A DNA stretch of 64,000 bases from Candidatus Cloacimonadota bacterium (GTDB lineage: Bacteria; Cloacimonadota; Cloacimonadia; Cloacimonadales; JAIOQZ01), in NCBI GenBank assembly GCA_021108395.1, contig JAIOQZ010000035.1, positions 1-64,000 on the forward strand, given 5' to 3'. A program made the position numbers and the translations under genes. The notes beneath the pieces are model-generated. The model was given only the letters and a program-made list of their open reading frames with translations, ran no database searches and was not told where the DNA came from. Shown here piece by piece: positions 9,817-47,557 of the stretch (the first letter of the stretch is position 1; each line of letters starts with the position of its first letter).

Positions 9817-10437
9817 ATGCGAATCCGCCTGTTGCTGCCCATTGTCTTTCTTGCCGCGTCTTTGTCCGCTCAATCTGCCAGACAACTGATTGCTCCCGCC
9901 GCCGAGCTGGCCGCGGGCCGCTTTGTCGGGCATCTGCCCACAGACGCGGTTGTGCGCCTCGATTCGCTTGGCGCCGGCGTCGATTTCGCCTGGCATTTGG
10001 GCGCCGCGTTCACCGCCGCAGGCATCCGTCTTTCCGACCAGGCGCAACTGGCTCGCAGCCACCAAGAACTGCTGCGCCTCCAGGACGACCCCGCCTTCGA
10101 GGGCGGGTCGCGGCCTGGCGGGTTCTCGGGGCCCACGCATCGCGTCTGGGGAGAGGTGGCGCTGCTTCGCCATCATCGCCTGGGCAAACCGCTGACCACG
10201 CTCAGCGTTCGGCTGGGACTGGAAGACATCGCCACCGGCGTTACGCTCAGTCGCTTCGACAGCGAGCAGACGCAGCGGCACAACCCGCCCGTGTGGACGC
10301 TGATCGCCCTGTTTGTTGCCTCGCTGCTGGCCGTGGGGCTGGTGAACGTTCTAAGTCATGGCTACAAGGGAACAGCGGCGCTCGCAGTCGCCCTGGGGCT
10401 CGACCTGGCATATCTCGCCTGGTATGTGTTTGCATAG
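9817..10437 (+). CDS. Envelope protein with signal peptide and two C-terminal membrane segments, unknown function
   Basis: A 206-residue protein starting MRIRLLLPIVFLAASLSAQS (signal peptide), behind a strong GGAGG site. The exported region (about 21-155) has a pattern (DSLGAGVDFAWHLGAAFTAAGIRLSDQAQL, then VWGEVALLRHH...LTTLSVRLGLEDIATGVTL) vaguely like the CsgG/LpoB-type fold, in which a variant Rossmann-like unit senses or assembles envelope structures. That resemblance is weak. Two hydrophobic helices (about 160-178 and 186-205) close the protein. The FHA gene follows after 120 bases that hold a separate promoter candidate. Confidence 0.7.
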   Translation: MRIRLLLPIVFLAASLSAQSARQLIAPAAELAAGRFVGHLPTDAVVRLDSLGAGVDFAWHLGAAFTAAGIRLSDQAQLARSHQELLRLQDDPAFEGGSRPGGFSGPTHRVWGEVALLRHHRLGKPLTTLSVRLGLEDIATGVTLSRFDSEQTQRHNPPVWTLIALFVASLLAVGLVNVLSHGYKGTAALAVALGLDLAYLAWYVFA

Positions 10438-10466
10438 TTCGGCTTATATCATATAGAAAGAAAGAC

Positions 10467-10494
10467 TTGCCACCAGAACGCCGGTATCTATACT
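10467..10494 (+). promoter_or_regulatory. Candidate sigma-70 promoter for the FHA operon
   Basis: TTGCCA at 10467-10472, a 16-base spacer and TATACT at 10489-10494. Transcription would start near 10501 and give a leader of about 60 bases before the ATG at 10561. Based on hexamer match only. Confidence 0.5.
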
Positions 10495-10560
10495 ATTGTT
10501 GCGAAGCTTGTTGAAGAACACAGTCAATCGCTCCGCGCATTTCACACATGAGGTTATGAC

Positions 10561-12621
10561 ATGATAAAACAGTTTATTCGGCTGTCGGCGTTGCGCAGGC
10601 AGGCGCAGAAGGATGTGGCCGAGCACGTTGCACGGTGGGACGACAAAAAGCGCGTGTTGCACGCCATTCTGGGAGGGGCGGCCACCAACCGCCAGTGGCT
10701 GGAGGAAGCGCAACACAAATACGCCCAGGCGCTCTCACGCAGCGGGTTTTCGCGGGCAGCTATGCTCACGGCGGCGCTACTGGACATCTACCGCTGCCAC
10801 TACCGCATGCAGCACAGCCGCTTCGAAGATGAGTCCGTGCACACGCTGCGCCAGAAATACGAGACCACCTATCTCAACGCCGCGCTCAACTTCATCGAAG
10901 ACCACATCCACGATGACGTTGCCGTGGGCAAACACTATGACCTGCTGAACCAGGCCATAGGGTTGCTGGCCGAAGAGAACTCCCGCCTGGCGCGAGCCTA
11001 TCAGGAGCGAATCCGTCAGCACCAGGCCGTTGGCGACACGCGACAACGATTGCAAACATTGCTGAAAACCCCGCCGGAGGCGGCGACAGCGGCGCTGTCA
11101 TTGCAAATACGCGCCCTGCTGCACGTTCACGAGGCCACGCTCAAGTCTGACCCGGCGACATGGGACAGCCTGATGGCGCACCTGCAAAGCTTCATCGAGC
11201 AGATTTATGCCCGGCAGCGCGAGCGGCTCGATACAGAGCAGGGCAAGCCCTCGCCGTCACTGCGCGTGATGGCCGGTATTCTCAACGACTTCGCCGCCCT
11301 GTACAAACCCCTGCGACAATACACCTACTCCCGCCGCTATCAGGCGTTCCTCGATGAGCGCGAACGCTGGGACGAGGCTCTCGCTTTTCTCGATAAGGAC
11401 TTCGCAGAGCTGAAGAAGATGTACGACTGGCTCTCGCTGCCCCGTGACAGGGTGGACGAACGCAAGATTATGGCTCTCTATGAGCGACTGGCCGGGTTCC
11501 GTCACCTTGCAGCCTCGCCCTGGAAGGAACTGAGCAGTCTCTCCCCGGACATCGAAACCATCGGCGCTCGCTTCGAGAAGGTGCTCGAAGACCGGCATCG
11601 CCGCGACTTCATCGACATAATGCGCCAATATAACGCGCTGCTGAACGCTCCCGACGGCCAGGCGCGACTGCGTGAACTGGGACGCTTTCACAGCTTTCTC
11701 GGTGCCCGCCTCGATGACAATCGCGGCGGCGCGTTCACTCGTGAGCAGCTCACGACGTTGCGCCAGGAGGTACTCCAGGAGATCGAGGCCGGCTGGCGCA
11801 AACTGCTCGAACAGAGGCTGGCAGACGCCGTGGACGAGCAAACCCTCATCGCCGCGTTCGACTGCGTCATCGAGCTTGCCCTCGAGCTTGAAAGCGTGGA
11901 ACGAGTCACCTCGCTGCAACGCCGCAAGCGCATATTGCTCGAACAGGTGCGAGCCGGTGAACCAGTGGAGCGGGCCGTGCGTTGCCAAATGGACGATGAG
12001 CCTTCGTCCCCCGAACCCGAAGGCGGCCACGAGCGCCTCGTTATCCTCGACAATTACAGCCTGCGCAACTACGTTCTCTTCACGGGGCCACGCATCACCC
12101 TGGGCCGCGACGATGACAACGACATCATCCTGCAAAGCAGCTTTGTGTCGGGCAAGCACGCCGCCATCGACTTCATCCGCAACCGCCTCACAGACCTCAA
12201 CACCACCAACGGCACCTTTGCCGACGACAAAACGCGCATCGAAGAACTGCCGCTGGGCGATGTCGCCTGGTTCGACCTCGCCGGCAGCATGGTGTTTTCT
12301 CTGCGTCATTTCGAGGGGGGCATCCACTTCGGGCTACAGAAGATTCTCGATCCCGAACTGCTCGACAACCCGGACAAACGCTCCTACAACCAGTCGCTGC
12401 TCAACACGGTGTTTATCTGGCTGACCGAGGGCGGACGCTGCCGAATTCACAAGGTATCTGGGCAGGTGAACGCCTCGGCAGGCAGCGACGGCGAGCAAAT
12501 TGTCATCACCAGGCGCGGCGACTACTTCCTGTTCACGGATGTCTCGCGCAATATGCACGAGCAGCCTCTTGACGAGGCGCAGGCCAACCTCTCCGACCGC
12601 TTCAGCTTCAATCTTCTATGA
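10561..12621 (+). CDS. Large FHA-domain protein
   Basis: A 686-residue cytoplasmic protein without a signal peptide. Residues 1-450 are almost entirely charged helix, with many heptad-like stretches (for example residues 15-110, 240-330 and 395-470). A forkhead-associated domain, which binds phosphothreonine peptides, occupies about 493-585; its conserved points are visible: GR in ITLGRDDDND, S and H in SFVSGKHAAI, and NG in TTNGTF. About 100 further residues follow. No kinase domain is present here or nearby, so the phosphorylated partner is unknown. It overlaps the next gene by ATGA. FHA proteins often sit in secretion or cell-envelope control modules, which fits its two exported neighbours. 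Confidence 0.85.
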   Translation: MIKQFIRLSALRRQAQKDVAEHVARWDDKKRVLHAILGGAATNRQWLEEAQHKYAQALSRSGFSRAAMLTAALLDIYRCHYRMQHSRFEDESVHTLRQKYETTYLNAALNFIEDHIHDDVAVGKHYDLLNQAIGLLAEENSRLARAYQERIRQHQAVGDTRQRLQTLLKTPPEAATAALSLQIRALLHVHEATLKSDPATWDSLMAHLQSFIEQIYARQRERLDTEQGKPSPSLRVMAGILNDFAALYKPLRQYTYSRRYQAFLDERERWDEALAFLDKDFAELKKMYDWLSLPRDRVDERKIMALYERLAGFRHLAASPWKELSSLSPDIETIGARFEKVLEDRHRRDFIDIMRQYNALLNAPDGQARLRELGRFHSFLGARLDDNRGGAFTREQLTTLRQEVLQEIEAGWRKLLEQRLADAVDEQTLIAAFDCVIELALELESVERVTSLQRRKRILLEQVRAGEPVERAVRCQMDDEPSSPEPEGGHERLVILDNYSLRNYVLFTGPRITLGRDDDNDIILQSSFVSGKHAAIDFIRNRLTDLNTTNGTFADDKTRIEELPLGDVAWFDLAGSMVFSLRHFEGGIHFGLQKILDPELLDNPDKRSYNQSLLNTVFIWLTEGGRCRIHKVSGQVNASAGSDGEQIVITRRGDYFLFTDVSRNMHEQPLDEAQANLSDRFSFNLL

Positions 12622-13802
12622 TCATTTGCCTGTTGCTGCTGCTGACCACCCTGAGCGCCGCCGACATTGTCGTCACCGCCGAGGCGGGCGGCCCCGAGCG
12701 CGCCACCGTGCAAGCCAGAGACATGCTGGCGCGCGAACTCGAGCAACGGCTCACTGGGCAACGGCAGGCGCTGTGGTTCTCCGCCCTGCCCTCTCTGCCC
12801 TGGGACGACACTGCCCCGCCTGCCGCACTGGGGCGCTCGCTGGCGGACGCCGCCGAAGTCACCGTTCTTCGCAAGGTCGAAGCCCGTCGCTTCATGGCCA
12901 GAGCGATTCTATCAGAAGCTGCCTGCGAGGCCGAGGTCGCGGCATGGTCGGCAAAGGCGGCTGCGCACTGTAGAAGGTTGCTGGCAGGCCACCACAGCCT
13001 GCTGGCCACCGATGCCACAGCCGCGCTACGCAGACTATCCGAGGCCATCAACGCGGCGCTGGGGGTCTTTGTGCTGCCGCCGGATGCAGCCGCTCTCCCC
13101 GACAGCCTGTCCCTCGCTGTGCAGCATGGGCCGGCTCGGCTCATTGTCGCCCAGCCCGGCGATGTCACCTTGCGCGAGGGCGAAAACCTGATTGTGAGCA
13201 TCCGGGTGTACATCGACGCCGACGAACCCCTACCGCTGGCCGGCATCCCTGTGCAACTGACAGGCGGCGGAAAGAACTATGACGCCAGCACCGACGCCAA
13301 AGGCTGGGCGCGATTCGAGATTCGGCAACCGGCGCAGGGTGACTGGGCCAGCCGCGTTTTCCTGCTCGACAGCCTCGTCCCCGGCGGACTGGAGCATCAC
13401 CGAGCGCTGCGCACCTTCGTTCTCAAGCTGGCCGCTGGCGAAACCGCCTCGTTTCGCGTGAGCGTGGCTGGTCGCCGACGTACATGGATGGAGAGCAACC
13501 TGGGCGACGTAGCCGCTGTGCAGGCAGTGTTCGAGAGGCGCGGGCATGTTTTCGTCAGCGACCCGCAGGCGGACTGGCGGCTGAACCTCACGGTGCACAC
13601 CGTCCATGAGGGCGTGCACTCATTGGGCGGCTATGTGTGTGTGCTCGAAGGGAGCTTGCTGCTGCAAGCGCCCGCCGGCGTAACCGCCGGCATGTGGCGC
13701 ACGGGACAGGTGGAGGCGTTTTCGTCGGTGTCTGTGGCCGACGCCCGCCGCCGCGCCGAAGCGGAGCTGTGCCAGCGCCTGCTGCGGGAGCTGAACAAAT
13801 AA
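12618..13802 (+). CDS. Exported protein with LPP20-like region and Ig-like domain, unknown function
   Basis: A 394-residue protein with a short signal peptide (MIICLLLLLTTLSAA). Residues about 20-130 are rich in Ala, Arg and Glu and resemble LPP20/FlgT-type envelope domains (AEAGGPERATVQARDMLARELEQRL). About 170-270 is an Ig-like beta-domain (REGENLIVSIRVYID...LAGIPVQLTGGG...TDAKGWARFEI). The C-terminal part (about 285-394) repeats a pattern of the first kind and ends with an Ala/Arg helix. These domain suggestions are by eye. Its start overlaps the FHA stop codon, so the pair is probably translated together. The repeat element that begins at 13803 touches its stop codon. Confidence 0.75.
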   Translation: MIICLLLLLTTLSAADIVVTAEAGGPERATVQARDMLARELEQRLTGQRQALWFSALPSLPWDDTAPPAALGRSLADAAEVTVLRKVEARRFMARAILSEAACEAEVAAWSAKAAAHCRRLLAGHHSLLATDATAALRRLSEAINAALGVFVLPPDAAALPDSLSLAVQHGPARLIVAQPGDVTLREGENLIVSIRVYIDADEPLPLAGIPVQLTGGGKNYDASTDAKGWARFEIRQPAQGDWASRVFLLDSLVPGGLEHHRALRTFVLKLAAGETASFRVSVAGRRRTWMESNLGDVAAVQAVFERRGHVFVSDPQADWRLNLTVHTVHEGVHSLGGYVCVLEGSLLLQAPAGVTAGMWRTGQVEAFSSVSVADARRRAEAELCQRLLRELNK

Positions 13803-17450: not shown

Positions 17451-18839
17451 CTATTCGAAGCTGTCGGGATGTGGCGCAGCGCCGGGTTTGAGCTCGGGCT
17501 GGTTCCAGCCGCCCCATAGCTCGTGCAGAGTGCGCCCGATGGATGTGTTGTCGATGTACGGCCCATGCTCAGGGTCATTGCCAATGACATGCGCGCCAAA
17601 GCGTTCGCTGCCGGCTCCCCTTGCATAGAACGGTACCAGAAAGTTGGTGTGGTGGTCTGTCAGCCAGTCCATGCCCGGCATGTTGCCCGCGCCGCGGTTC
17701 TCGACCGGAAACAAACGCACGTCGTTGTCCTCACACACCGAACCAGGACCGACCAGTCCGCCGCATTCGTGGTCGGCGGTGACTATCACCAGCGTCTCGT
17801 TCCAGCCGCCGTGCGTCTCGACCCACTCCAATACCGCCTGCACTGCCTGGTGAAAGTCGCGTGTTTCCTCGATGGTGCGTCCCGCCCAGTTCTTATGAGA
17901 CGCCTTGTCAATCGCCCCGCCCTCGACCATCAGAAAGAAGCCGTCGGGGTCGTCGTCGAGGACATTGAGCGCGGCGTTTGTCATCTCGGCCAGTGAAGGC
18001 ACTCCTTGCGTGAACGGCACGGCAAAGGCGTCGGCCTCGGGGTCGCCTTCGCGCTGCTGTTGCGTGGTTTTGCCAGCCATTGGAACGCCAAGTACACGGA
18101 CGGGCGTGTCGCCGTCGGCGAGGGCGAGAAAAGCCTCGCGGCTGAAGACGACCTCCCAGGAATCGCCAATGCCGTCGTTGTCGCAGTCGGCCATGGGCGT
18201 ACTCGCCAGAACGGACTCCCAGGTCTCGCGTCCGCCGGCATAGCGGAAGTCACGGGGCTTGTAGTCTGTGCTGTCGGCGGCAAGGACGGCAGGATTGCCA
18301 CAGCCCATGAGCACGCGCACATTGGACTCGGTAAGCAATTGTCTGGCGATGCCGAGATAGTCCCTGCGGTTCGCGTTGTGAACGGCGAATGTCGCCGGCG
18401 TCGCATGGCCGAACACCATCGTGGTGACCAGCCCCACAGCCTTGCTCTGTTCATAGCCACGCTCGCTGAGGTGTTGCAACGGACGGCGCCAGGCATCCAG
18501 CCCGATGTAGTGGTTCCAGGTTTTCACGCCGGTAGAGAGCGTCGTGCCCGAGGCAGCGGAATCGGTGGGGTCATCCAGAACCGCGTCTGCTTCCCGCCTG
18601 ATGGCAACCGGATCGTAAGCGGCGGCGGTGTCCATCGAGTAGGTGCTCACAGCCAGTTGCACGGGGAACGACTGGAACACGAGCAAGCTGTCGCGGCCAA
18701 ATTCGTAATAGTTGAGTGCGCGGACATGCTCGAAGCCGCAACCGTCGGCAATCATCACAATGATATTGCGCGGTGTCTGCGCACAGAGCGCGGAAACGAC
18801 GAACATGGCTGTCAGCAGCCAGACAATTCGTGATTTCAT
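17451..18839 (-). CDS. Alkaline phosphatase, PhoA family, exported
   Basis: A 462-residue secreted phosphomonoesterase with a signal peptide (MKSRIVWLLTAMFVVSALCA). The metal site and nucleophile are clear: Asp32 in IVMIADGCG, Ser94 in DPTDSAASGTTLSTGVKTW, a VGLVTTMVFGHATPATFAVH block, EGGAIDKASH, TADHECGG and the late histidine in DHHTNFLVPFYARGAGSE. It would release phosphate from organic esters outside the cytoplasmic membrane. An acidic insertion near residues 215-230 (CDNDGIGDSWE) resembles a calcium-binding loop. No T9SS domain is present. Repeat copy B lies just upstream of the start. Confidence 0.92.
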   Translation of the reverse strand: MKSRIVWLLTAMFVVSALCAQTPRNIIVMIADGCGFEHVRALNYYEFGRDSLLVFQSFPVQLAVSTYSMDTAAAYDPVAIRREADAVLDDPTDSAASGTTLSTGVKTWNHYIGLDAWRRPLQHLSERGYEQSKAVGLVTTMVFGHATPATFAVHNANRRDYLGIARQLLTESNVRVLMGCGNPAVLAADSTDYKPRDFRYAGGRETWESVLASTPMADCDNDGIGDSWEVVFSREAFLALADGDTPVRVLGVPMAGKTTQQQREGDPEADAFAVPFTQGVPSLAEMTNAALNVLDDDPDGFFLMVEGGAIDKASHKNWAGRTIEETRDFHQAVQAVLEWVETHGGWNETLVIVTADHECGGLVGPGSVCEDNDVRLFPVENRGAGNMPGMDWLTDHHTNFLVPFYARGAGSERFGAHVIGNDPEHGPYIDNTSIGRTLHELWGGWNQPELKPGAAPHPDSFE

Positions 18840-40625: not shown

Positions 40626-43600
40626 TTAGAACAGAATCTGCACCCACACGCTGAGGCCGAACGTCTTGATCTTCATGTCCCTCTTCAGGTCGTGCGTCCA
40701 GTCGTAGGTGACGGTTGAGCCACCCTCGATATTGCGATGGAAGTTGTAGGCCCCGCCCAGCCGGAACTTGTAGGACTTGTTGTTGAGATCGGTCTGTTGA
40801 GTAGCGCCGGTGTCGCTGGTGGTTTGTTTTCGTTCGTAGGTAACGTCGAACGTGGTGGTGAATTCGTTCTTGAATATCCACCGCTTGAAGAACGGCAGCT
40901 TGATGCCCTGGGCCGCGCTGAGCCGGTGCACCAGGTGAACGTTGATTCGCTGTTCATTGGAGACACGGATGCGGTCGGTTTCGAGGTGTGTGATATTGCG
41001 GGTAGTGTTCAAGCTGTATGAAGCGCTCGTGACGAGGTCGATTACCCAATTGCCCGTCCAGCTCAAGAGAGGGTTGAACGCGTTGGTGATGTTCGTTGTC
41101 TGCGGTTTATCCCAATTCATCACACCCGATTCCTTGCGCGTGAGCACATAGGCGCTGGAAAACGAAGAATTGGAAAGATAGTCGCTCAACCCTATCATGT
41201 TCTCGAATTGCCCCAGAGTGGCCGTTACGTTGGGAAACACCTGCGTGATTTCCTGCTTTGTCGAGTTGGAGTAATGCCGTGTGATGGTGTATGAATAATT
41301 CCAGCGGGTGGACAAATTGTCGAATATCGGCAAGCTGGTGGAAGCGGAAAAGGTGTCGTCGTTATTCTTCTGAACGATGTCTTCACCATCCAGCACATGT
41401 GGAATGCTGATCTGGTAGAGAAGCTCCGGTGAATCCTCGCGCTCGTCAAAGTTTGTGCCATATGTGTTCGTCCATGAGAACTGGATGTTGTCGAGCCGCG
41501 CAACGTATTGCAGCATCTTCACCAGCGGGTTGAAGCCGCTCTCTTCGGCAACCTCCGGTTCCTGTTCGCCTTCGCCATCCACCGGCTTCTCATCGCCTTC
41601 TTCAAGAGGCTTCGGCTTCTCCTGAGGGTCTCGCTCATCGCCGATGTTCTCGTCCTCGGGCAGCGCCGGCAAGAATGGCGGTGGCTGTTCGTCTCCTGGA
41701 AGCGGTTCGTCCGGGGAGTCTTCCGGTGGCTCGCCACGCCCGCCCTTCATCCCATCATCAACAGGATCAAACGGGTGGTCGTCGCCTTCTTCTATCCCTC
41801 TTTCCGGGGGGATGTATCGAGATGGAGACTCTGTACTGCGCATGTTGACGGCCTCGCCCCCGAAAAGAGCGATCAGGCTGTTGAGCATGTCGCGGTTCTT
41901 CAGGGTGATGTCAACGTCGAACATGCGGGAAACATCGCCGGTGTATTTGAATTCCGATTCCTTCAGGCCGGTATCGGGATTGTTCAACACCGTTTCCGTC
42001 TGCCTTTCGTTATACTTCACGTTCAGGGCGACACCCCAGGCGAGCACGGATTCGAAATGAGCGGGGTCGTAGCGAATATCGAAGTCCTGTCGCCGGTTCT
42101 TTTCGCGTCCGATATTCACGTTCTTCCAATAGTTTTTCCACAGCAGGTTGCGGTTTGTGGTCAGGGTGAATGTCGAGCGCAGGTCGCTGAGCATATCGAA
42201 AGTGATTGTGTTGGAGGTGTCGAGAGTGCGCGTGTTGACGGTTTGGCTCACCGGCACCCATTCATATTCACCGGAGGTCTGTTTCTCCGTGCGCCATCGC
42301 CGGGGAAAGCTGGCTTTGAAGGTGTAGGAATTGCGGAAAGATTGTGGTATGAAATATATCTTATAGTCGCCCCACAGGCTCAGGCCAACCTTCTCTCTGG
42401 GAATATCGAGGTTGTAGGTGAATTTCTCGGTGTATGCCAGTGTTGTGTCACGCTGGGTGGGACCTGTGGTATAAGTCTGGGAGATGTCGCCGTTGAGCGT
42501 GGTGTTCTTCACTGTGTAGGCCAGCAGCCAGTTTGACGGCATACGGTTCTGGCTGATGCCGATGGAAGCGGAGCGACGCTCTGTACGGGCTGTCTGTTCT
42601 TCCTGCTCTTCCGGGCTGAGATCGGCGACCAGCATGTCCGAGCTGGCTTTGTATCTCGGTTTCCTCTCGACCTGCGAATAGGTCAGCGACAGCGGGATAC
42701 TCAGTCCCCATTCGGCGGGGAAGAATTTGTGCATGCTGTAGCGGTTGCTCATCGACAGATCGATCTTCTCTTCCTGGGATGTATTGGTGTTTCCACGCCC
42801 TCGACTGGTGATAGTGTAGAAGTTGGGTGTCTGCCAGGAGAGGGTGGCGGTGAATGAGATGAAATCGGCAAAATTGGCGGTGAACGATGTGCGCGCCGCA
42901 TAACCGAGGTCATCGAACGGCTCGGCCACACGAATATCGTTGAAGTAGATACGGCCGGAAAACGGCTCGCTTTCATCTGGAATTCGCACACCCAGCGACA
43001 TCTCGCGGATGTTCGAGAGAGTGGGATTGCGAACGCGGCGATAGGTGATGTTATCAACAGTGTCGGCAACGACTGCGTACACGTCGTCGTTGATAACCTT
43101 GAGCCGTGTCAGCTCGGTGAAGTCTATCTCGAAGTCGTACCACAGACTGCGGGGCATCTTGCTGCTGCCAGGGCTGGCGTTCATGTCGTATGAATATGGC
43201 TCGAGTTTGATGCTAACCTCATAGAAGTTCAGCGAGTCGGCGCCCAGGCGCAGCAGCAGCTCCAGCGAGTCTGGGTAGATTACGTCCTGTAGCAGTTCGG
43301 GATATACGAAAAACCGCACCTTGCCGTAGGTCAACAGATTATATGAATCCCGGAACTTCTGGCGCACCATGCCGTAGTGGCCCGGATACAGGTTGGTGTA
43401 ATCGACCACGAGCGACTGCTCCAACGTCTCGATGCCCTCTTCCTTGTCGGTCGTTTCCGGCGGCGCGGTGTAGTGGGGATTTTCGATGTTGTCGGTAATC
43501 CCCTCCTGAATGCTCTCGTTGTTCGAGTCCAGCACAATCTCGGACACATCGAGGTCAGTGATAAAATCGCCCACTTCGCGGATCGGCTGGCTTTCCCATT

Positions 43601-46600
43601 TATTGCCCACTACATCCACATTCACAATATCGATGTAGGTGGTGTCGCTCACCTCGAACCAGAAACGCACATAGCTGATTTCGTCGTGCGAAGGAACAGC
43701 GTTGCTGCTGGATATTTTGCGATAGGCGTCGTTGTCGAGCAGCGGTATGCGGAATATTCGGAATCCCTTGCTGTTGGCGCTTTCCAGATAGTCAGCGCCA
43801 GACAGATCGAACGAGTACTCGAAGTAGCGGTTGGCCAGGTCGAGCGAGCCGTTGGCGTCCAGGTCTTCCGTGTCGAGCTGTTTGTTGCCCTCGGTACCGT
43901 TGATGTGAGGGAACTCACCGCCAACCTTGTCGTTGTCGAAGTCATCTTCGGGGTCATCGCCAGGCTGGCCGTTGCGGATGCCGTCAAGGCCGACATCTTC
44001 GACATAGTCGTAGATGCCGTCGCCGTCACCGCCGTTCTTGCCGTCCTCGATGTTGAGAACGCCCAGTCCACCGAACTCGACGTAGAAATCCTCGCTGATG
44101 TCGCCCATATCGATGTGCATTATCACGGGGTTTTGCGACTGTGTGGCGTCAACACGCACCATCACCTCGATGTACTTTTTCTCACTGAAGTCGAGGCGGT
44201 TGCCCACATATTTCATCAGTCCGCCCCAATAGCGCAACTGGGAGCCGGGCATCTGTAACCCCGATGGAATAACCTTGCATCGAAGCAGTGACACCCGTTC
44301 GTCCTGCTCATTTTCTGTGAGCAAGCTGTCTTCGTACACCTCACGGGCATATACGTCAGGCGGATTCCACCATTTGGTTTCGGCTCGCGGCAGGCTTGTA
44401 TCGTGCGGGGCGGAGCCAAGCACCCAACCGGAGCGGGAAGAACCAAACGGAAAAACCGAGAGGATGGACTCCATGTCTTCGAGATAAGCCTCCGGGTCGT
44501 CTTTCTTGTCGGGATCGCCGTAAATTGTCGGCAGATTGAGAGCCACCTCGCCCGACAGGCTCACCTCCGATTCCTCGTCGGTTCGTATCAGAGGAATGAG
44601 GTCAACCAGGCGAGTCATGAATGGCGGGTTGAAGCTGATCTCGCCATCCAGGTCGGCTAATATCTGCGTACGGTTCTCGTTGCCGATTCTGGGACGCTTG
44701 TCCTCGACTCTTTCCGAGTGATAGATAAATGTAGTGCCCAGACGGGCGTTCTCGTTGAACTTCAACTCGGCGCGAAATCCGGCCATTGTCTTCGATTCGA
44801 CAGCGAACATCGGTTTGTATTCGAAGTCGATGACGATGTCGGCGTCGGGGTCTTTGCCCTCTGGAGTGAGAAAGGTGATGTTGCCGAAGTCATAATCGAC
44901 GATATAATCGACGTTCTCCTTGAGCGTACGGCCGTTCACGGTCACCTTGACGCTGCCCTTGAGCACGTTCATCTGGTTGAGCGAAATCTGATCGCGGCCG
45001 ATGTCGCCGGTGGCGTACATATAGATGTCGAATTCGTCGTAACTAACGTATTCACGTTCTTCGAGATAGATTATCTCATCACCGAGCGAGTAGAACGGCT
45101 CGATAAAGGGGTAGATGACGTACCCGCCGGTGAGGCTAATTGTGTCGTCATCGCCGTTGATGAGAGTGTCGCCGTTCGAGTCGAGCCGCAGATAGTCGAT
45201 ATAACGGTCGCCAACCGTGCCCGTGATCACAGCGCTGGGCACGTTGAAGTTGAATGTGTTGTCTTCATTGACGGTGTAAACGTTGAAGCTGAACCCGTCG
45301 TTCTTCACGTTCTGCATGGGCAGCTTGTAGATGTTGCGCATCTGCAGGTTCCAGGTCGAGTCGCCGACTTCCTGATTGCCCACCCTCAACATGCGCACGG
45401 TCAGGTCGCTCTCGCTCGGATTGCCAATCTGCTGCCCACCCACTGTGGTGAACACAGCGCCGATCGAGTAGTTGTCGTTGATCTGCCGATTCAGCGCCAC
45501 ATAGCCCACGTCGTAGTTCACGACGTAGTCGGTACCTTCGATAAGCTCCTCGAAATTGTAAACGTTGGGATCGTCGGGATCGAGGCTGTGACCCGTGATG
45601 GTGATGATCTCGTCGTTGTCATAGATGTAGTCGTCGAGGTATAGGCGAACACTGCCGTTGGCGGGAAGCAGGTCGCCCCCCATGATAACCCAGTCGCCAC
45701 CTACGGTCTGGATGGCGTTGCCGCTCCAGGTGGGCGGCGCTCCCTGTTCGCTTCCATCGTGAATCGAGTACAGCAGATATGGATCGTCGAGGTAGTAGTG
45801 AGTGCGGAGAACGAAGTCAACCGAGCCGATGGTGATCGAGTCGGCTTCGCTCGAACCGGTGAGGCGTTTGCTGGTTTTCTCGCCCTCTTCCTTGCCCACG
45901 ATGGTTATCAGCTCGAGATAGCCGATCTTGAGGCGGCTTTTCACTCCGAACAGGCTTTCGGAGGAAGCCGAGTAGCCTATGTAGGTGGTCGAAGGCAGGG
46001 ACAGCGAGATGTTGCCCGCCTCGATTTCCTGAAAGATTTCGTCCTCGGTGCCAACGTATTTTATCTCTATCTCGTTGGGATTGGAGAGCGTCTCCTCGCT
46101 GATCGAGGTGTGGTTCACATTGACGTGTATCTTGTCGCCGATGGTGCCGCGCAAACGCAGCCGCAGTTCCTGCTTCATCTCGAGGTCGAAATCCTGCCGC
46201 TGATCGGCTTCGTCGAGCCCGGCGTTTTCGTGTACGGTGCTGCTGCCGGCGAAGGTGAGCTTCTGGCTGCCGTCGATGGAGAGACGCGCCGTGGTGCCCA
46301 GCACACGACGGAACGGCTTTGGAATAGCCTGGCGCGGCAGCTCGATCTCTATCTCGCTGAAGATACCCGTGCCAGAATCGCGATCCTCGTCCTGTAGCAC
46401 CTCATAGACGTTCTTGCGCAGCAGTTGGTGAAACCGCGCCCGCGTACTCGATTGAAGGTAGCTGTCGAAGCTCATGCTGCGCGGCCTGGCCAATTGCCTG
46501 CCGGCAAGCGTTGGCGCCAGCAATATGCGGCTGAACCGACGTTGCGGAATCACAGCCGTTTCCACCACGAATTTATCGGCAAAGTAGCTGCGCAGCGAGG

Positions 46601-46775
46601 TGAATCGCAGGCCGCGGTGATATTTATACACGTCAACCTCGTTCTCCACAATCGGCTGATAACCTTCGAGATAGAACTTTGGAAGGAACACCTCGGCGGA
46701 AAGCCCCGCAGCCAAAGTCAGGCAACAAAGCAACAGCAAAAGACGCGAGCGCGAAAGGTGAGGTTTGATAATCAT
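40626..46775 (-). CDS. sprA: SprA/Sov-type T9SS outer-membrane translocon
   Basis: A 2049-residue protein (family about 2000-2500). It has a signal peptide (MIIKPHLSRSRLLLLLCCLTLAAGLSA) and SprA N-terminal modules with LSIDGSQKLTFAGSS and DLEMKQELRLRLRGTIGDKIHVNVNH (about 160-220). A long array of strand-rich segments is interrupted by an acidic Pro/Glu/Asp-rich stretch near residues 1660-1760, and the C-terminus is a barrel strand ending LSVWVQILF. In Bacteroidota SprA forms the giant 36-strand pore through which sorting-domain proteins leave. ATG 46775 overlaps the coaX stop codon (ATGA) and is preferred to a TTG at 46796. No gldK/L/M/N, porT or porU homologue is in the window. Confidence 0.92.
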   Translation of the reverse strand: MIIKPHLSRSRLLLLLCCLTLAAGLSAEVFLPKFYLEGYQPIVENEVDVYKYHRGLRFTSLRSYFADKFVVETAVIPQRRFSRILLAPTLAGRQLARPRSMSFDSYLQSSTRARFHQLLRKNVYEVLQDEDRDSGTGIFSEIEIELPRQAIPKPFRRVLGTTARLSIDGSQKLTFAGSSTVHENAGLDEADQRQDFDLEMKQELRLRLRGTIGDKIHVNVNHTSISEETLSNPNEIEIKYVGTEDEIFQEIEAGNISLSLPSTTYIGYSASSESLFGVKSRLKIGYLELITIVGKEEGEKTSKRLTGSSEADSITIGSVDFVLRTHYYLDDPYLLYSIHDGSEQGAPPTWSGNAIQTVGGDWVIMGGDLLPANGSVRLYLDDYIYDNDEIITITGHSLDPDDPNVYNFEELIEGTDYVVNYDVGYVALNRQINDNYSIGAVFTTVGGQQIGNPSESDLTVRMLRVGNQEVGDSTWNLQMRNIYKLPMQNVKNDGFSFNVYTVNEDNTFNFNVPSAVITGTVGDRYIDYLRLDSNGDTLINGDDDTISLTGGYVIYPFIEPFYSLGDEIIYLEEREYVSYDEFDIYMYATGDIGRDQISLNQMNVLKGSVKVTVNGRTLKENVDYIVDYDFGNITFLTPEGKDPDADIVIDFEYKPMFAVESKTMAGFRAELKFNENARLGTTFIYHSERVEDKRPRIGNENRTQILADLDGEISFNPPFMTRLVDLIPLIRTDEESEVSLSGEVALNLPTIYGDPDKKDDPEAYLEDMESILSVFPFGSSRSGWVLGSAPHDTSLPRAETKWWNPPDVYAREVYEDSLLTENEQDERVSLLRCKVIPSGLQMPGSQLRYWGGLMKYVGNRLDFSEKKYIEVMVRVDATQSQNPVIMHIDMGDISEDFYVEFGGLGVLNIEDGKNGGDGDGIYDYVEDVGLDGIRNGQPGDDPEDDFDNDKVGGEFPHINGTEGNKQLDTEDLDANGSLDLANRYFEYSFDLSGADYLESANSKGFRIFRIPLLDNDAYRKISSSNAVPSHDEISYVRFWFEVSDTTYIDIVNVDVVGNKWESQPIREVGDFITDLDVSEIVLDSNNESIQEGITDNIENPHYTAPPETTDKEEGIETLEQSLVVDYTNLYPGHYGMVRQKFRDSYNLLTYGKVRFFVYPELLQDVIYPDSLELLLRLGADSLNFYEVSIKLEPYSYDMNASPGSSKMPRSLWYDFEIDFTELTRLKVINDDVYAVVADTVDNITYRRVRNPTLSNIREMSLGVRIPDESEPFSGRIYFNDIRVAEPFDDLGYAARTSFTANFADFISFTATLSWQTPNFYTITSRGRGNTNTSQEEKIDLSMSNRYSMHKFFPAEWGLSIPLSLTYSQVERKPRYKASSDMLVADLSPEEQEEQTARTERRSASIGISQNRMPSNWLLAYTVKNTTLNGDISQTYTTGPTQRDTTLAYTEKFTYNLDIPREKVGLSLWGDYKIYFIPQSFRNSYTFKASFPRRWRTEKQTSGEYEWVPVSQTVNTRTLDTSNTITFDMLSDLRSTFTLTTNRNLLWKNYWKNVNIGREKNRRQDFDIRYDPAHFESVLAWGVALNVKYNERQTETVLNNPDTGLKESEFKYTGDVSRMFDVDITLKNRDMLNSLIALFGGEAVNMRSTESPSRYIPPERGIEEGDDHPFDPVDDGMKGGRGEPPEDSPDEPLPGDEQPPPFLPALPEDENIGDERDPQEKPKPLEEGDEKPVDGEGEQEPEVAEESGFNPLVKMLQYVARLDNIQFSWTNTYGTNFDEREDSPELLYQISIPHVLDGEDIVQKNNDDTFSASTSLPIFDNLSTRWNYSYTITRHYSNSTKQEITQVFPNVTATLGQFENMIGLSDYLSNSSFSSAYVLTRKESGVMNWDKPQTTNITNAFNPLLSWTGNWVIDLVTSASYSLNTTRNITHLETDRIRVSNEQRINVHLVHRLSAAQGIKLPFFKRWIFKNEFTTTFDVTYERKQTTSDTGATQQTDLNNKSYKFRLGGAYNFHRNIEGGSTVTYDWTHDLKRDMKIKTFGLSVWVQILF

Positions 46776-47557
46776 GCAGTGGAGGAGTGGTTGCAAATCA
46801 GGTGCAGTCCGTCAAGGGTGAGTGTCTTGTCCACACGGTCGATGGTGCGGCTGAGATCGCACACGACCGAGGCGATACCGCCGGTGCCGATGGCGTATAT
46901 CTCGCCGAGATGGGCATATTCCTGCCGGATGCGGTCGATGAATCCATCAATCATGAAAGCGCTGCCGGAGAGAATGCCGGAAAGCAGCGCGTCGCGTGTG
47001 GTGGTGCCCAGCAATTGCCGAGGTGGTTCGAGCTCGACGTGAGCCAGCAGGGCTGCTTTCTCGAACAGGTGCCCCGATGCAGTAAGAACGCCGGGCGCGA
47101 TTATCACTCCGTGAAAATACCCGTCGGCGCCGACTAACTGTATGGTCGTGGCGGTACCAAAGTCGCAGACTGCACAAGGACGCTGATATTTCCTCCAGGC
47201 GGCGTATGCGTTGACAATGAGATCTGCCCCGATGCAGCCGGGATCTGTGATTGGAAAGCTCAGGCCAAGCTCTGAGTGGCCACTCACCACCACCAGCCTG
47301 CAACCGAAATATTTATTGATCATTTGGGAAAATGCGCGGGTAATGTCGGGCACAACCGAGGCCAGGGCGCAGATGTCGAAATCACGCGGGTTGATGGCGG
47401 CGGTGTGCAGCAGATCGCTCATCAGGCAATAGTGTTCATCCCCGGTGCGGCGCTTGTCGGTGGCCAGTCGCCATTGATGTGCGAGTGAGCCACCTGTATA
47501 AACGCCGACAACGGTGTGCGTGTTGCCGACATCAAAGACGAGACTGCGTTGATTCAT
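46772..47557 (-). CDS. coaX: Type III pantothenate kinase
   Basis: A 261-residue CoaX-type kinase, phosphorylating pantothenate in the first step of coenzyme A synthesis. Visible are the ASKHA phosphate-binding start MNQRSLVFDVGNTHTVVGVY, VVPDITRAFSQM, the conserved PGCIGADLIVNAYAAW with the catalytic Asp, VCDFGTATTIQLVGADGYFHGVIIAPGVLTASGHLFEKAALLAHVEL and the IGTGGIASVV loop near the end. ATG 47557 fits the family; a TTG 18 bases upstream is less likely. It overlaps sprA. Confidence 0.94.
   Translation of the reverse strand: MNQRSLVFDVGNTHTVVGVYTGGSLAHQWRLATDKRRTGDEHYCLMSDLLHTAAINPRDFDICALASVVPDITRAFSQMINKYFGCRLVVVSGHSELGLSFPITDPGCIGADLIVNAYAAWRKYQRPCAVCDFGTATTIQLVGADGYFHGVIIAPGVLTASGHLFEKAALLAHVELEPPRQLLGTTTRDALLSGILSGSAFMIDGFIDRIRQEYAHLGEIYAIGTGGIASVVCDLSRTIDRVDKTLTLDGLHLICNHSSTA

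Follow-up and report, generated by a model that had tools for sequence, protein, structure and literature searches.

An FHA-protein gene set of Cloacimonadota that recurs with a Ser/Thr kinase, a possible phosphorylation pathway across the cell envelope

Which system is encoded by three adjacent genes of a Candidatus Cloacimonadota bacterium that join a large FHA-domain protein to two exported proteins? The genes, here called genes 1 to 3, lie in a 64,000-nucleotide stretch of DNA (the window; contig JAIOQZ010000035.1 of assembly GCA_021108395.1, positions 1 to 64,000), which is part of a 2.89-Mb draft genome that we label G000. FHA domains are readers of threonine phosphorylation, and an earlier note on this DNA, made from the sequence alone, had proposed a phospho-controlled envelope system. 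We find that the gene set is real and lineage-restricted. Moreover, we propose that the three genes and a kinase gene on another contig of the same genome, C1, form a trans-envelope Ser/Thr-phosphorylation pathway, a reading for which we consider the chances to be even.

Genes 1 to 3 are same-strand open reading frames (ORFs) with the ends given in the earlier note, and genes 2 and 3 are coupled, as it had stated, by an ATGA overlap at 12618-12621. Between genes 1 and 2 lie 123 bases, and a GGAGG motif precedes the possible start codon of gene 1, ATG 9817. Table 1 collects the features of the set.

Table 1. Positions of the three genes, their domains and the kinase gene. Coordinates refer to the window, except for the kinase.
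Feature	Position	Strand	Product or extent	Basis
Gene 1	9817..10437	+	206-aa exported protein; probably one periplasmic domain, two C-terminal membrane helices	ORF, start site, hydropathy
Gene 2	10561..12621	+	686-aa cytoplasmic FHA protein	ORF; no membrane segment by hydropathy
Gene 2, helical array	10582..11991	+	residues 8-477, 23 helices	structure model
Gene 2, FHA domain	12094..12246	+	residues 512-562	Pfam PF00498
Gene 2, C-terminal alpha/beta domain	12319..12615	+	residues 587-685	structure model; alignment
Gene 3	12618..13802	+	394-aa exported protein	ORF; N-terminal hydrophobic segment 1-19
Gene 3, Ig-like domain	13131..13472	+	about residues 172-285	fold comparison
Gene 3, LptE-like last domain	13473..13799	+	residues 286-394	fold comparison
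Kinase	G000 contig C1, 111383-114439		about 1,018 aa; kinase domain, membrane helix, leucine-rich repeat (LRR) region, membrane helix, FGE-like domain	

Homologues were searched for in a set of 58 genomes from eleven families, in 56 genomes, or in 124 genomes of the phylum. On a single contig of genome G007, the genes for the kinase, gene 1, the FHA protein and an exported protein follow one another. In G003 the kinase gene and gene 1 are followed by an FHA gene that a contig end cuts off, and the remaining FHA part with gene 3 opens another contig; we infer that these two parts belong together. The kinase encoded directly 5′ of gene 1 has 1,016 residues in G007 and at least 1,043 in G003, with kinase domains (E 5.9e-52 and 8.1e-43, respectively) and FGE-sulfatase domains (E 2.1e-46 and 1.2e-52), and with weak LRR matches in G003. 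Other genomes break the string elsewhere, i.e., genes 1 to 3 are together and the kinase is on C1 in G000, kinase and gene 1 are in one place and FHA gene and gene 3 in another in G009, G016 and G020, and kinase and gene 1 are on separate contigs in G023. G001 has gene 1 and the FHA gene running to a contig end, in G004 a contig starts with the FHA gene and gene 3, and both genomes carry the kinase on another contig. In total, kinase and gene 1 adjoin in five genomes, gene 1 and FHA gene in four, and FHA gene and exported protein in seven. By eye, the families that we read differ in the genes around the set, and the surroundings of the kinase look alike in the two genomes of family f1. Since the point at which the set splits varies between genomes whose surroundings are otherwise unlike, we regard gene order as the best evidence that it is a unit. 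The statement in the earlier note that no kinase is adjacent hence holds for the neighborhood in the window but not for the relatives where kinase and gene 1 adjoin, and G000 itself encodes the kinase elsewhere. The note had made its proposal depend on homologues being found together, and they are: a gene 3-type protein lies directly behind the FHA gene in seven genomes (a leave-one-out test supports six of the seven, the window weakly, and not G007), and gene 1 homologues, seven of seven supported, adjoin either the FHA gene or the kinase. Nor did the exported proteins match a known unrelated system, which the note had named as a second ground for dropping the idea.

The distribution of the FHA protein and the kinase is similar. 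With gene 2, 12 of the 58 genomes were matched, nine over the helical part and three (G031, G036, G042) restricted to the FHA region. When the helical part was used as a profile, it matched 12 of 124 genomes, nine strongly (E 5.7e-77 or better) and three weakly (E 3.1e-5 to 0.009, over at most 77 of 461 positions). The FHA family thus has carriers in nine of 124 genomes, and these belong to six (f1, f3, f4, f7, f9, f11) of the eleven families in the 58-genome set. For the kinase, a profile of the middle region gave 29 matches in the 124 genomes, ten of them strong (E 1.9e-47 or better); among the 19 weak ones (E 3.5e-17 or worse) the stretches listed fall mostly on LRR positions. The ten strong genomes are the nine FHA carriers and G023, which is 64% complete. 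A co-occurring Ser/Thr kinase, which the earlier note had suggested looking for, is thus present in all FHA carriers. With the whole kinase every one of 56 genomes matches through the kinase or the FGE domain; the same ten do so at E 2.8e-84 or better and the next best reaches 8.2e-42. Judged from these sequence searches, the FHA family and its neighbors occur together in several families of the order more than expected by chance, gene 3 being subject to the limits of the leave-one-out test. Fisher tests (p 1.3e-9 for 56 genomes, 0.0022 for 11 families) take no account of descent and overstate the association. No match was found among plasmids; viral contigs gave none either in a scan that reaches close relatives only. 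Among named genomes, in a scan with the same reach, the window protein had no relative, and two proteins of family f9 matched only their own two Candidatus Cloacimonadota records, so that the set may also occur outside the phylum.

The FHA protein could also read another kinase, e.g., that of a 1871-aa frame in G000, with the linkage to the FGE-type kinase being secondary. This frame holds one of the two Pkinase domains of G000 over the Pfam cut-off, the other being the kinase of Table 1, and two more fall below it. Genomes G001, G007, G009, G011 and G020 likewise have two matches each over the cut-off, the FGE-type kinase always among them, so that a second kinase is available in carriers. 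However, this second kinase lies outside the gene strings that we read and its distribution is unlike that of the FHA family, as kinase-region matches in counterparts of about 1,820-1,860 aa are found in many non-carriers. We therefore hold this alternative to be improbable. In G031, several kinase-domain matches cluster on one contig (contigs C118, C87 and C108).

Can the gene 2 product read phosphothreonine? Its FHA domain matches PF00498 with E 1.1e-10 (42.2 bits versus a cut-off of 20.7), and about 470 residues before it are modeled as helical (mean predicted local distance difference test score, pLDDT, 84.7; predicted template modeling score, pTM, 0.42), in agreement with the extension of some 450 residues described in the earlier note. 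The motifs GR, SxxH and NG, which we take to be the phosphothreonine contact residues of FHA domains, are kept in all seven aligned rows that span the domain; two of the nine rows are cut off, and the C-terminal alpha/beta domain is aligned in the same proportion, seven of nine with the other two cut off. By sequence, the domain hence retains the residues for phosphothreonine reading. An FhaB match (E 4.8e-9) remains below its cut-off. Sequence comparison with solved structures returned FHA domains, with only weak matches (E 0.08 or worse) for other regions. For the helical array we rejected a specific fold assignment, as fold matches were generically helical with Z at most 8.0, which is within chance for helical models.

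An FHA fold may also serve without phosphorylation; the FHA-fold domain of YscD is thought to be a phospho-independent structural part. Gene 2 could accordingly encode such a part of an envelope or secretion machine, with the products of genes 1 and 3 as periplasmic subunits and the kinase as a separate matter. Consistent with this, both partners are exported, the FHA gene and gene 3 stay paired where the kinase is elsewhere, and gene 2 has a weak match to Yop-YscD_cpl (E 1.2e-4, below cut-off). Yet the plain FHA family scores far better, the contact residues are kept in all seven rows that span the domain, hydropathy finds no membrane segment in gene 2, and the kinase, gene 1 and FHA genes form a string in G007 and G003. 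We regard the structural alternative as unlikely, although it deserves more weight than a reading through another kinase.

Further FHA proteins were seen in two places. The only other FHA match of G000 is a cyclic-nucleotide-binding plus FHA protein on contig C33 (L067:6347-7147). In G031, family f8, locus L033 (563-5000) encodes a 645-aa FHA-domain protein, a possible lipoprotein and a further FHA protein of 314 aa with a zinc ribbon; about 190 residues at the end of the latter align with the FHA and C-terminal domains of gene 2 (26% identity, E 7e-17), and perhaps this locus is a sister system. The FHA gene of G011 occupies two frames on contig C2 (L028:9080-11127), through either an interruption or a misassembly, and no gene 3 follows it.

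The kinase itself has its catalytic motifs, i.e., the kinase lysine, HxDxKPxN and the DF pair are kept in eight of eight kinases. Two hydrophobic segments were found in all six kinases tested, where they bracket a region of about 300 residues with LRRs. The best NCBIfam match of the kinase domain is a PASTA-kinase model (E 5.7e-59, below its cut-off and over the kinase part only); PASTA repeats were not detected at E<=0.01, and LRR matches occur instead. The FGE-sulfatase domain is over its cut-off (E 1.3e-54) and matches solved FGEs, and a GldK match (E 2.2e-31) is below cut-off. The domain is shared with proteins of the FGE-like/C-type-lectin fold (FGE, GldK/PorK, treponemal variable protein). 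In contrast to FGE, which has a catalytic cysteine pair, the domain is fused to a kinase and, with a Streptomyces FGE as reference, lacks the second catalytic cysteine in eight of eight kinases, with a cysteine near the first position in seven. These residues make binding a likelier role of the FGE-like domain than catalysis. In G000, an M23 peptidase gene follows the kinase gene on C1 (L059:10600-11886); none was seen after the kinase at the other loci that we read. In G011 (contig C53, L060:1824-3613), pairs of genes that look ExbB/ExbD-like by eye precede the kinase at a distance of a few genes.

As the kinase matches the PD-T4-6, mad6 and PglW models, an anti-phage defense system with a Ser/Thr kinase also had to be considered. 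Among the matches listed (25 of 35), only the kinase domain is covered, at most residues 26-329 of 1,018; genes 1 to 3 are without a PADLOC match at E<=0.01, and two of their products are exported. A defense function is hence highly improbable.

What could the exported proteins contribute? For gene 1, hydropathy confirmed the two C-terminal membrane helices (161-179, 187-205) proposed in the earlier note; its N-terminal signal stays below the hydropathy threshold, which all six relatives tested exceed. The gene 1 family is homologous throughout, with leave-one-out passed by seven of seven at E 1e-18 or better (window protein E 1e-18). Independently, a four-member profile picked up G009, G016, G020 and G023 (E 6.4e-16 or better) and reached 8 of 56 genomes in total; three of these four newly found genes come immediately after the kinase. 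Gene 3 was modeled with lower confidence (mean pLDDT 69.6, pTM 0.34), apart from a block with pLDDT of 84 or more from about residue 291. Its Ig-like region, suspected in the earlier note, was borne out by fold comparison (best Z 10.6, root-mean-square deviation (rmsd) 2.7, 96 residues aligned). The LPP20-like region of that note found no support, as none of the seven family members matches LPP20 at E<=1; the fold search barely covered the N-terminal region. The last domain of gene 3 appears closest to LptE in its modeled fold. It aligns with 8h1r, 8h1s, 7rxu, 3bf2, 5iva and 5tse at Z 8.1-8.7 (rmsd 3.5-3.8, 103-106 residues), values little above the level of unrelated models; three of these are titled LptDE, and the remaining three are presumably LptE relatives. 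With Foldseek alone, Ig-like chains came out on top and four of these six entries followed at E 1.2e-4 to 5.3e-4. Sequence searches of solved structures gave nothing credible for gene 1 or gene 3. Weak Pfam matches of single family members were taken as chance and rejected, i.e., TadB_TadC_N (E 7e-4) and 7TMR-DISM (E 0.0055) for gene 1 and Vps54_N (E 0.001) for gene 3.

The LptE-like fold suggests an alternative, namely an operon for outer-membrane or wall assembly whose parts are LptE-like and LpoB-like, which includes an FHA protein only incidentally and has no part in signaling. Weak LpoB (PF13036) matches in three of seven gene 1 members point the same way (best E 0.0023, 18.3 bits, cut-off 22.3). 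The window protein has no PF13036 match, and gene 1, although weakly similar to LpoB in some relatives, has two terminal membrane helices and is not recognized as LpoB by sequence. Against the phylum's LptE profile, gene 1 matches weakly (34% probability, P 4e-4; one local alignment takes in the signal peptide) and the last domain of gene 3 not at all (0.5%); a common origin of gene 1 and this domain was rejected after a negative profile comparison. Unlike LptE, gene 3 has two further regions, and PF04390 (LptE) matches none of its seven members at E<=1. Of 18 genomes searched, 17, among them G000, encode a separate PF04390 protein, and gene 3 is therefore excluded as the genome's own LptE. 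Moreover, most of the order lacks the set, which is therefore not a core assembly function, and the operon would leave the kinase unexplained. We hence doubt this explanation strongly.

Our proposal of a phosphorylation pathway would work as follows. Because the kinase has two membrane helices, both its ends are probably cytoplasmic and the LRR region periplasmic. It would sense the state of the envelope, helped by gene 1, whose periplasmic domain would be held in the inner membrane, and perhaps assisted by the exported gene 3 protein with its Ig and LptE-like domains. Once active, the kinase would phosphorylate a threonine of its own or of a partner; gene 2 would then dock on the phosphothreonine with its FHA domain, and the helical array would recruit or restrain an envelope-assembly machine. 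Phospho-control, as already proposed in the earlier note, is suggested here by the conserved FHA contact residues together with the kinase motifs. A more specific version is a four-protein phosphothreonine circuit, independent of the type VI secretion system (T6SS), that would span the envelope of an uncultured two-membrane lineage and control outer-membrane or wall assembly. It would consist of an LRR receptor kinase with a noncatalytic FGE-like domain, an FHA protein as helical scaffold and a pair of exported sensor or effector proteins; this version we consider rather doubtful.

A number of observations weigh against the pathway. The kinase of G000 itself is unlinked to the three genes, and DFG reads DFS in the G009 and G020 kinases. 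Members of the set were not found in several genomes, i.e., gene 3 in G001, gene 1 in G004, gene 3 and the FHA gene in G023, and genes 1 and 3 in G011, where the kinase is present and a frame change disrupts the FHA gene. No phosphatase was recognized by eye in the gene strings, and PF13672 (PP2C) is absent from G000, G001, G009 and G011; other carriers have PF13672 matches that are unlinked. Gene 3 of the window matched only itself in the 58 genomes, and the exported proteins directly 3′ of the FHA gene elsewhere share 13-19% identity with it. A seven-member gene 3 profile found its own seven members in 56 genomes and five weak matches (E 5.1e-4 to 0.007). As the seven were the profile's own members, we ran the leave-one-out test, i.e., a profile of the other six against 563 sequences. 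Five members ranked first with E 2.5e-11 or better, the window protein was weak (rank 1 of 563, E 2.2e-4) and the G007 protein failed (rank 16, E 2.9). The homology of gene 3 is therefore weakly supported in the case of the window and unproven in that of G007. Finally, in an rpoB tree of 25 genomes (26 were searched; G001 gave no match), the carrier label needs three changes, compared with 7.6 on average after shuffling. A tree that unites all carriers in one clade is not significantly worse (p-AU 0.22), and independent contrasts with good support number only two, in one of which the presence of the kinase agrees with that of the FHA gene. Descent alone could account for the distribution, and gene order is the better evidence.

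The surroundings of the set in the window are as follows. Two genes of the opposite strand lie upstream of gene 1, one for a phosphotransferase system (PTS) EIIA and one for a protein that matches no Pfam family; the gene downstream of gene 3, likewise on the opposite strand, has a sub-threshold Por-secretion tail. Farther away on the minus strand are an alkaline phosphatase gene (17451-18839; PF00245, E 1.4e-51) and a 2,056-aa open frame (40626-46796).

In the open-access literature, we found no described Ser/Thr-kinase pathway for Cloacimonadota, which is weak evidence of novelty, no paper on FHA domains in this phylum, no paper that joins a threonine kinase, FGE-like and FHA domains, and, in most searches on that pair, none that joins an FHA domain with LptE. 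Two described systems are close in layout. In the threonine phosphorylation pathway of the H1 T6SS (PpkA, PppA, Fha1, TagQRST), a kinase in the membrane works with an FHA protein of the cytoplasm and with envelope proteins that adjust kinase activity, and T6SS firing is under kinase-FHA control (PMC12133291). Our set has the same three kinds of component. Here, the kinase gene stands with the FHA gene in G007 and, to the contig end, in G003, and apart from it in the other carriers read. TagR is an FGE-like periplasmic protein, whereas the FGE-like domain of our set is fused to the kinase and probably cytoplasmic. Moreover, the T6SS pathway has the phosphatase PppA, which has no recognized counterpart in our gene strings, and our exported partners are not recognizable as Tag proteins.

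In the mycobacterial PknB-FhaA/FhaB system, a receptor-type Ser/Thr kinase and an FHA protein with a non-FHA N-terminal part before its FHA domain act on cell-envelope synthesis (PMC11898655). The receptor-type kinase and the FHA protein with a non-FHA N-terminal part are common to both; in place of the PASTA region of PknB, our kinase has an LRR region, plus the additional FGE-like domain, gene 2 differs from FhaA/FhaB in its helical array and in the domain after FHA, and two exported partners come in addition. By analogy, the set may work like the T6SS threonine phosphorylation pathway or like PknB-FhaA, with membership in neither being shown. It would then extend kinase-FHA envelope control to Cloacimonadota, and its named partners make the idea that a kinase marks and an FHA scaffold reads testable with purified proteins.

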